DNA of 64,000 nucleotides from Candidatus Methanoliparum thermophilum. Lineage in GTDB: Archaea > Halobacteriota > Methanoliparia > Methanoliparales > Methanoliparaceae. Shown piece by piece: positions 49,113 through 51,445 of this stretch. How positions within the stretch are numbered: position 1 is the first letter of the stretch; the number at the start of each line of letters is the position of its first letter. Made by a program: the position numbers and the translations under genes. The stretch spans positions 248,001 through 312,000 of the forward strand of contig RXIF01000004.1 of NCBI GenBank assembly GCA_004212075.1, in the 5' to 3' direction. The notes under the pieces were generated by a model. It was not told the origin of the DNA. It searched no databases and saw only the letters and a program-made list of their open reading frames with translations.

Positions 49113-50110
49113 ATTTTATTATTTACCTTTGATTCATCTCTATTTTTTGTTTTTTCGTTAGAGATACTGAACTCTATACATAGATGGTAACAATGAGGCG
49201 AATAAGATCTGACGATCCTTTTATTATGGATAAATATATCTCCAGCGATCTCTTCAATTTTTTTAATATGCTCTTTAAACAGATCTTCTTTATTATTCTC
49301 TTTACCAAAAGTATAAAAATAAACGATTCCATCTTTCTTGATCAAGTTTGTAGCTTTTTCTAAAAAATTGTAAGTATTGAACGGTAGATTCATTATAATA
49401 TGATCGGCAACATTATACTTGGATAAGACGGATCCTGAATCTCCTACTATTATATTTAAATTGCTTCCTATATTGTTCAATTTTTTATTCTCGATCAAAT
49501 ACTTTATAGCATAACGATTGCAATCTACTGCAACGACCGTACAATTTTTTTTTGCTGCTGGAATTGAGAAAGGGCCCACACCAGCAAACATGTCTATAAC
49601 AAAATCGTTGTTATTTATCTTTTCTATAACCCGTCTCCGTTCTGTAGACAATCTTGGATTAAAATATGCCTTTTCTATATCTAATTTGTATAGACAACCA
49701 TTCTCCTTATGTATCGTCTCAGTCCTCTTCTCTCCTGCTATATATTCGTATTCTCTCGTTCTAAATATGCCCTCTACAGATGATGCCTTCCTCAATACTA
49801 CTCTTATATTCTTCCTTTTAAGCAAAACTTCTGCCACTCTTTCAGCATCTTCCAAACCTAATGGGAGGATGGCAATATCTCCCACTATATCATACGGAAT
49901 ACGAGGAATATCAGATCTCTTTTCCTGTTCTTTAAAATCCATCTTAACAAACGTAAGACTGTTTTTGTAATCCATTATCGAGTGTTGAACTGGAAAATAG
50001 ATATAAAAATCGTCTTTTAAGATGGTAAGATCCTCTCTAATAAATTCTTTAATCTCTCTCCTCAATATTTCTGCTCTCTTTTTATTAACCTTTACCGCAA
50101 GACTCCTCAT
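49109..50110 (-). CDS. trm5: tRNA (guanine-37-N1)-methyltransferase Trm5
   Basis: Methylates G37 next to the anticodon, preventing frameshifting. The SAM-binding motif is VIDMFAGVGPFSIPAAKKN, the catalytic/substrate loop is HIIMNLPFNTYNFL, and the N-terminal D1/D2 regions include YDIVGDIAILPLG. The 333 residues match archaeal Trm5. It overlaps the upstream winged-helix gene by ATGA, so a local regulator and trm5 share one transcript. Confidence 0.92.
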   Translation of the reverse strand: MRSLAVKVNKKRAEILRREIKEFIREDLTILKDDFYIYFPVQHSIMDYKNSLTFVKMDFKEQEKRSDIPRIPYDIVGDIAILPLGLEDAERVAEVLLKRKNIRVVLRKASSVEGIFRTREYEYIAGEKRTETIHKENGCLYKLDIEKAYFNPRLSTERRRVIEKINNNDFVIDMFAGVGPFSIPAAKKNCTVVAVDCNRYAIKYLIENKKLNNIGSNLNIIVGDSGSVLSKYNVADHIIMNLPFNTYNFLEKATNLIKKDGIVYFYTFGKENNKEDLFKEHIKKIEEIAGDIFIHNKRIVRSYSPHCYHLCIEFSISNEKTKNRDESKVNNKI

Positions 50111-50577
50111 AATCTACAAAATCTTCTCTCTTTTTTATCTACTAATAAAAAAGTATCAGGTGCTGTAGAATTTATCTCTTTTTCACCTAGTATAACCCTA
50201 TATTCCCTGTTGTTTCTATCTCCACGCCACTCCAATATATTTTCTTTGCACATTCTCGATAGATACGTAGATACTGTACTCATCTTTATTTTATCGTTAT
50301 ACTCTTTGTCAAACCTCTCTTTAACCTCTTTGGATGTAAACCATCTATCCGAAAATTCAAAGACAACGAACCGTTTAAACCGGTCTATAAGCGAAGACTT
50401 AAAACGTGGCACCTCTTGATAAGAATAAGATGCATCACTGATTGAAGATGATGGCAATTTCAATCCTTCAATAAATAATCCTATCAATTTATAGATCTCA
50501 CTAAGATCTTTATCAGATGTAACCTCTATACACGATTTATTCCCATCTTCTTCAATCTCGATGCATATTTTTTTCAC
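50107..50577 (-). CDS. Winged-helix-type protein of unknown function
   Basis: A 156-residue protein starting at GTG 50577. Residues 60-130 resemble a winged helix (SDRWFTSKEVKERFDKEYND, then TVSTYLSRMCKENILEWRGD and NREYRVI). The N-terminal 55 residues and the C-terminal tail (DTFLLVDKKERRFCRL) are not recognised. Three phased palindromes lie 18-57 bp upstream, next to a TATA-like TTTATATTA near 50660, as expected for an autoregulated repressor. It overlaps trm5 by 4 bp. DNA binding is inferred from the fold and the upstream sites. Confidence 0.6.
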   Translation of the reverse strand: MKKICIEIEEDGNKSCIEVTSDKDLSEIYKLIGLFIEGLKLPSSSISDASYSYQEVPRFKSSLIDRFKRFVVFEFSDRWFTSKEVKERFDKEYNDKIKMSTVSTYLSRMCKENILEWRGDRNNREYRVILGEKEINSTAPDTFLLVDKKERRFCRL

Positions 50578-50594: not shown

Positions 50595-50634
50595 TGTGAA
50601 TTTACAAGATGTGATCACAATCTGTGAATTCACA
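50595..50634. promoter_or_regulatory. Three operator-like palindromes spaced 14 bp apart
   Basis: TGTGAATTTACA (50595-50606), TGTGATCACA (50610-50619) and TGTGAATTCACA (50623-50634) share TGTGA/TCACA arms; the second and third are perfect palindromes. Their centres are exactly 14 bp apart. They lie just upstream of the GTG of the winged-helix gene and, judged from the TATA-like sequence near 50660, at the predicted transcription start. A related half-site, TGTGAATTGTG, lies near 50768-50778 on the minus strand. Confidence 0.65.
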
Positions 50635-50779
50635 AGTTAATCTTGAGTTTCTCATAATATAAATCTTTTGGTTTGTTCGGTATAAGATGCTATGTTGTAT
50701 AAGGATTAACACAATTTGATATCATCTACTAGATGTAATAAGCTTGATTAGCATTTTTTTATCTATACACAATTCACAT

Positions 50780-51316
50780 TTATCTATCCCAAACCATATA
50801 GTATTCCTCTTTTATATCGCTCAAAGTCAAATCCAGATATTTCTGAGTAGTAGCAAGATCAGAATGTCCCAGTATCTTCTGCAATGCTCTTAAATTACCC
50901 CCACGTTTTAAAAAATAAACGGCAAAAGAATGCCTGAACGTGTGCGGATGGATATTCTTATAGTCTAATCCGCTTTTTTTGGCATACATCTTGACTATCT
51001 GGAAGATCCTAACTCGTGTTATATTGAAGATGTAATCCGATCTCGTTTTTTTATCTATCAGATATTTTTTGATCCTGTTTAGTAGATCTTCAGTAATAGG
51101 GACGTATCTATCTTTGTTACCCTTGGACTGTTCTATCTTTATTATACTATCATCCCAAAAAATGTTCCTCTCTTTTAAAGAGCATACCTCGGATACACGT
51201 AGACCACATCGCCACATCAATAAGAGTATTAGATAATTTCGCTCGTTATTCTCTGCATGTTTAAGAATTGTTTCAACCTCGTTCTCATTTAAGTAAGATG
51301 GTAATCGGTATTTCAT
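50780..51316 (-). CDS. xerA: Short XerA-like tyrosine recombinase
   Basis: A 178-residue tyrosine recombinase consisting almost only of the catalytic domain. The first catalytic Arg is Arg40 in WRCGLRVSEVCSLKE. HPHTFRHSFAVYFL carries His-x-x-Arg, and LGHSDLATTQKYLDLT carries the second His and the nucleophilic Tyr. The N-terminal SAM-like core-binding domain, about 90-100 residues in the Pyrococcus XerA, is missing: the protein starts at LPSYLNENEVETIL, where the catalytic domain begins. A perfect dif-like 28-mer ends 1 bp before the start codon. This may be a chromosome-dimer resolution enzyme or a domesticated integrase. Confidence 0.85.
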   Translation of the reverse strand: MKYRLPSYLNENEVETILKHAENNERNYLILLLMWRCGLRVSEVCSLKERNIFWDDSIIKIEQSKGNKDRYVPITEDLLNRIKKYLIDKKTRSDYIFNITRVRIFQIVKMYAKKSGLDYKNIHPHTFRHSFAVYFLKRGGNLRALQKILGHSDLATTQKYLDLTLSDIKEEYYMVWDR

Positions 51317-51317
51317 A

Positions 51318-51345
51318 ATTTAACAAAATGTGTCTTTTGTTAAAT
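51318..51345. other. dif-like 28-bp recombination site
   Basis: Two perfect 11-bp inverted arms, ATTTAACAAAA (51318-51328) and TTTTGTTAAAT (51335-51345), flank a 6-bp centre TGTGTC. The 11-6-11 layout is that of Xer dif sites, and the right arm differs from the Escherichia coli XerD arm (TTATGTTAAAT) at one position. It sits 1 bp upstream of the xerA ATG and overlaps the likely TATA element (CTTATATTTAAC on the minus strand), so binding by XerA could also repress its own gene. Confidence 0.72.
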
Positions 51346-51445
51346 ATAAGCTTATTCATACATCACTAATAAACACATTCTACGATCAAGGTATTAAAAA
51401 TTATAGGATTAGTTGACTATCGAGCGTTATTTATGCTGATATGTA

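Follow-up and report, generated by a model that had tools for sequence, protein, structure and literature searches.

A catalytic-domain-only XerA gene adjoining a dif-like site in an archaeal genome, with relatives in two archaeal classes

Among the closest described counterparts of the locus studied here are the archaeal XerA/dif systems of Pyrococcus abyssi and Thermoplasma acidophilum, with which it shares an XerA-family catalytic domain, an 11-6-11 site and a single recombinase. In Pyrococcus, XerA/dif has an 11-6-11 layout and works with no partner proteins (PMC2958812, PMC5357621), and in the Thermococcales dif does not adjoin xerA (PMC2958812). Known archaeal XerA has an N-terminal core-binding domain, whereas the 178-aa XerA of our locus is without one.

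The locus lies in a window of 64,000 nucleotides, i.e., the whole stretch of DNA analysed, which belongs to the draft genome G000 (1.257 Mb, 12 contigs, 86% complete). G000 has two mcrA genes, and beta-oxidation-type genes, as read from sequence, are present in the window; the organism probably belongs to Ca. Methanoliparia. The features of interest are as follows.

50780 to 51316, minus strand: xer gene, 178 aa, archaeal XerA family, catalytic domain only
51318 to 51345, minus strand: dif-like site, an inverted repeat of perfect 11-6-11 layout that reads ATTTAACAAAA-GACACA-TTTTGTTAAAT on the xer strand
51329 to 51334, minus strand: central 6 bp of the site, GACACA, the reverse complement of the spacer TGTGTC of relative G001
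51342 to 51349, minus strand: putative promoter element, the TATA-like box TTATATTT, which shares bases with the left arm at its outer end

The coding sequence (51316..50780) encodes a 178-aa tyrosine recombinase in which Pfam recognizes PF00589 (Phage_integrase) alone (residues 8-163, E 2e-39). The NCBIfam archaeal XerA model NF040815 aligned over model positions 92-263 only, its first domain being absent, and scored 173.5 bits, the model's cut-off of 220 being meant for full-length proteins. As an in-frame TAA lies two codons 5' of the ATG, no N-terminal domain can be added 5' of the gene. The protein thus lacks the N-terminal core-binding (SAM-like) domain of archaeal XerA, as a sequence-only reading of this DNA had already proposed, and its R-K-HxxR-H-Y set of an XerA-type catalytic domain is complete (R40, K65, H125, R128, H151 and Y160), these residues being invariant in the eight minimal Xers aligned. 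Archaeal XerA proteins are its closest matches in both sequence and fold, and a fold search with the AlphaFold2 model (pLDDT 85) returned archaeal XerA structures 5hxy and 4a8e as top matches. A stand-alone core-binding protein (PF02899) was sought in the G000 genome and none was found, nor were other PF00589 genes found in this 86% complete draft, from which a second recombinase could be missing. The best explanation is that the enzyme would descend from an archaeal XerA that lost its core-binding domain, and we consider the reading to which this belongs probable. Its grip on DNA must differ from that of usual Xers because the usual C-clamp is impossible without a core-binding domain.

Read directly, the plus strand at 51318-51345 is ATTTAACAAAA-TGTGTC-TTTTGTTAAAT, and on the xer strand a single T separates the site from the ATG at 51316. 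The perfect 28-bp site described earlier as lying 1 bp from xerA is therefore real. When up to three mismatches were allowed, the two-arm pattern matched once in the window and in none of 100 window shuffles, and a search of the genome at the same threshold gave a single copy, although a further copy could be missing from a draft of this completeness; the search for other 28-mers thus returned none at unrelated loci. On contig C1 (319 kb) there are two perfect 11-6-11 repeats: one is the xer site, and the other, made up of A and T only, sits at the end of the contig. A perfect AT-only palindrome (L271, 8-41) opens C1 and possibly marks an assembly end at a hairpin. Another candidate, GATACAAAA-N6-TTTTGTATG at C1:163453, lies inside a reading frame and was discarded as chance. 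The right arm was also said to differ at one base from an E. coli arm, which is correct (TTTTGTTAAAT versus TTATGTTAAAT; PMC2410131); the resemblance is probably a coincidence because the outer arm bases vary freely among relatives. As to a replication terminus, the curve of cumulative GC skew is noisy and peaks about 9 kb from the site, and an orc1/cdc6 gene 3 kb from the site would, if anything, point to an origin.

Conservation was assessed in G001, a relative from the same genus in which one site and one tyrosine recombinase were found. The gene order Thi4-Trm5-winged-helix (HTH)-xer-Lhr-phosphoesterase is the same in both genomes. For xer, dN is 0.063, the lowest among the five neighbours compared, and dS is 1.08 and saturated; these rates indicate strong purifying selection on xer. 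All 22 arm bases are identical in G000 and G001, compared with 71% of the 100 bp outside the site, an identity that at 71% per base has a probability of 5e-4 (computed after the pattern was seen). The arms next to xerA, on whose conservation in close relatives the sequence-only reading depended, are thus retained.

The spacer behaves differently from the arms, as GACACA in G000 and TGTGTC in G001 differ at all six positions and are exact reverse complements. A random 6-mer of the same composition would be an exact inversion with a probability of 1.8e-4, also computed after the pattern was seen, and the flip is a single event observed between two draft genomes. Because the arms are palindromic, spacer polarity alone orients the site. 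As both copies in a dimer are identical and parallel, dimer resolution would not be affected by a flip if no partner protein reads this polarity. The two spacer forms have about equal hairpin folding energies (-6.8 and -6.5 kcal/mol), the loops of stem-loops are often flipped in plastomes (PMC6824564), and a hairpin-type micro-inversion, as the simplest cause, is most likely. An exactly inverted spacer could also be the product of a FimB/FimE-type DNA invertase, which would agree with a minimal enzyme of FimB/FimE size and with weak matches to invertase models. However, the genome search gave no second site with which an inversion could take place, the invertase models reach 56.2 bits against the 173.5 bits of archaeal XerA, and plastomes show loop flips of this kind to be common, so that we consider an invertase very improbable and keep to a hairpin-type flip as the likely cause. 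The spacer GACACA also occurs at a site in G046:C145 (L252) with different arms and a different enzyme, which may be chance.

The sequence-only reading had further claimed that the site overlaps the likely TATA box of xer, which suggested autorepression. TTATAT is indeed located at -33 to -28, with a 2-bp overlap with the left arm, and TATATA-type motifs peak 25-35 bp before the ATG among 92 genes of contig C1, which makes this the usual TATA distance in the genome. The box is kept in G001 as TTTATATTT. The dif-like site occupies the whole stretch from TATA box to start codon, and since it fills this space we infer that xer may be autoregulated: XerA bound at the predicted site could plausibly repress its own transcription. 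The palindrome might even be an operator only, by which XerA or another protein controls xer, with recombination taking place at another dif in the genome. Its position, which takes up the core promoter, would suit such an operator, and operators of this kind are often palindromic, but G000 has no other dif-like copy at up to three mismatches, and every copy in genera g1 and g3 has the exact 11-6-11 geometry of an Xer site. The left and right arms co-vary as well (see below), though operator arms would do the same. We regard a mere operator as unlikely and favor a recombination site placed in the promoter of its recombinase gene. Elsewhere in the window, the winged-helix gene (50577..50107) is preceded upstream, at 50595-50640, by clustered palindromes of TGTGA type (TGTGAATTTACA, TGTGATCACA and TGTGAATTCACA), which are conserved in G001 and look like an operator of that gene.

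The class of G000 is represented by five genomes, all from a single family with two genera. In a survey of 394 genomes of the phylum, most of the families that gave matches had full-length XerA, about 270-330 aa long. Catalytic-domain-only Xers close to the G000 protein occurred in families f1 and f2, the latter consisting of one genus in a separate class. An 11-6-11 repeat with 0-3 mismatches lies 1-10 bp before the start codon of all 14 minimal xer genes from g1 and g3; the set includes every minimal xer of these genera whose 5' region was read, second and decayed copies included, presence of the repeat was not a criterion, and several g3 starts were set as the nearest ATG/GTG or by alignment. 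The g3 count comes from direct reading of the 5' regions, as the automatic upstream scan ended at the start of the catalytic domain and missed most g3 sites, which extend beyond it.

Arms diverge widely among the g1 and g3 sites (ATTTAACAAAA, AAGATACAAAA, ATTAAACAAAA, ATTACCCAAAA, ATTGCCGATAA), and yet left and right arms change together. Eighty-nine percent of the cells are paired versus 71% in shuffles, a percentage inflated by the choice of the 15 aligned sites as dif-like, among them an orphan and some that belong to decayed genes. Cells in which both arms changed number 28, whereas shuffling gave 10.0 +/- 2.2 and none of 500 shuffles reached that number, although related copies are counted separately and independent changes are fewer. 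Such co-variation, in which different bases are kept complementary, is less affected by site choice than the paired percentage, and the signal vanishes when the arms are slid by 1-3 bases.

Genus g2 has a repeat with imperfect arms about 75 bp upstream of the minimal xer, and its minimal Xers are found on contigs with Prim-Pol and TFIIB genes; some members of the group may thus serve mobile elements. The unit could also be an integration module of a plasmid or virus, consisting of an att site and an integrase, that has become fixed in g1. Tandem and decayed copies in g3 genomes, the Prim-Pol and TFIIB neighbours in g2 and the tandem C-terminal xer fragments in G004 are in line with such an origin. 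The g1 gene, however, stands alone in a conserved gene order with no element genes adjoining it and is under strong purifying selection, and an exact-match scan of IMG/VR for viruses with the same two-arm site gave no match, which makes an integration module quite unlikely for g1 compared with a chromosomal resolution system.

Several further arrangements were seen in these genomes. Tandem and decayed site-plus-xer units are present in g3 (L247 5586-6800, L248 5567-7240, L270 and L267), one of them an orphan site next to which only a 5' fragment of xer is left, and resemble repeated insertion or duplication at the site. Two different tandem dif-like sites, 6 bp apart and with no adjoining xer, were noted in L288 (G040:C122, contig coordinates 5137-5194) and L257, inside sequence repeated on two contigs, the second site being shortened in L257. 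In g2, L240 (1425-2389) carries two extra tandem copies of the minimal xer 3' end on a contig with a Prim-Pol gene. In L243-L248, CTCTCACTTTT lies upstream and AAAAGTGAGAG downstream of several g3 xer genes, as terminal repeats or neighbouring promoters.

Minimal Xers from the two archaeal classes form one clade (support 90/94) in a tree from which ten long-branch, distant or partial loci were removed and in which bacterial rows were thinned; the support rests on that choice, and the minimal group was broken up in a first tree that kept the long-branch rows. A single loss of the core-binding domain would be the simplest reading of this moderately supported clade, though not a conclusive one. 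Full-length xerA genes of the phylum also have sites nearby: in 12 of 30, the 700 bp before the catalytic domain contain an 11-6-11 repeat with no more than one mismatch, mostly near the likely gene start, against a control of one in 26 kb, and dif beside xerA is thus common in the phylum.

The sequence itself, the conservation and uniqueness of the site, its co-varying arms, the purifying selection on xer and the missing core-binding domain support a chromosomal single-recombinase module. We think it probable that this is a slimmed-down variant of known Xer/dif serving dimer resolution. XerA would bind the two symmetric arms and cut where they border the 6-bp spacer; in a chromosome dimer left by homologous recombination, it would recombine the two directly repeated site copies to give monomers. 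Bound between TATA box and start codon, it would also block xer transcription, and the flipped spacer, most likely born of a hairpin-type micro-inversion, would be of no consequence for resolution. As a more tentative extension, possible but in our view doubtful, the minimal Xer would resolve dimers at an orientation-free dif within its own core promoter, making site occupancy and enzyme supply one switch, while gene and site would change specificity together and would have multiplied to several units per genome in the second archaeal class.

If the module is what it appears to be, it would be the smallest Xer dimer-resolution module known to us, with an enzyme of half size, a 28-bp site and a shared promoter, and it raises the question of whether Xer recombination can do without the core-binding domain. 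Pairs of diverged enzymes and adjacent, co-varying sites form a natural data set on how tyrosine recombinases change specificity. Since the spacer is inverted from one species to the other, the polarity of the site may be irrelevant in this single-recombinase system; were the orientation-free reading true, the flip would show that no partner reads it.

A search of the literature outside subscription journals gave no paper that names a minimal XerA. The locus had been proposed to be an unusual self-contained unit, and what stands of this is a conserved joining of a site to a catalytic-domain-only Xer. A dif beside its recombinase is already known and is not rare, given XerS/difSL, the Sulfolobales, XerL of Coxiella and the 12 of 30 full-length xerA genes above. 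In streptococci and lactococci, XerS/difSL is a single module of one recombinase and an adjacent site (PMC5357621), as here where the site is 1 bp from the gene, but XerS has 356 aa and depends on FtsK, and difSL is 31 bp long, its arms being unequal and its centre 11 bp, compared with 178 aa, 28 bp and a 6-bp centre in G000. XerL/dif of Legionella and Coxiella likewise uses a single recombinase, and on a Coxiella plasmid the site is directly beside xerL (PMC9765430), but these systems are bacterial and the Legionella site is near the terminus. In the Sulfolobales, dif is close to xerA (PMC2958812); the published passage places it near the gene, versus within 1 bp of the start codon in G000. 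FimB/FimE-type invertases are of similar length and have only a catalytic domain, like the 178-aa XerA, but they invert a segment between two repeats, whereas the genome search gave one site only. What is new in the locus described here is that the core-binding domain has been lost, that gene and site change jointly, and that the spacer is flipped.
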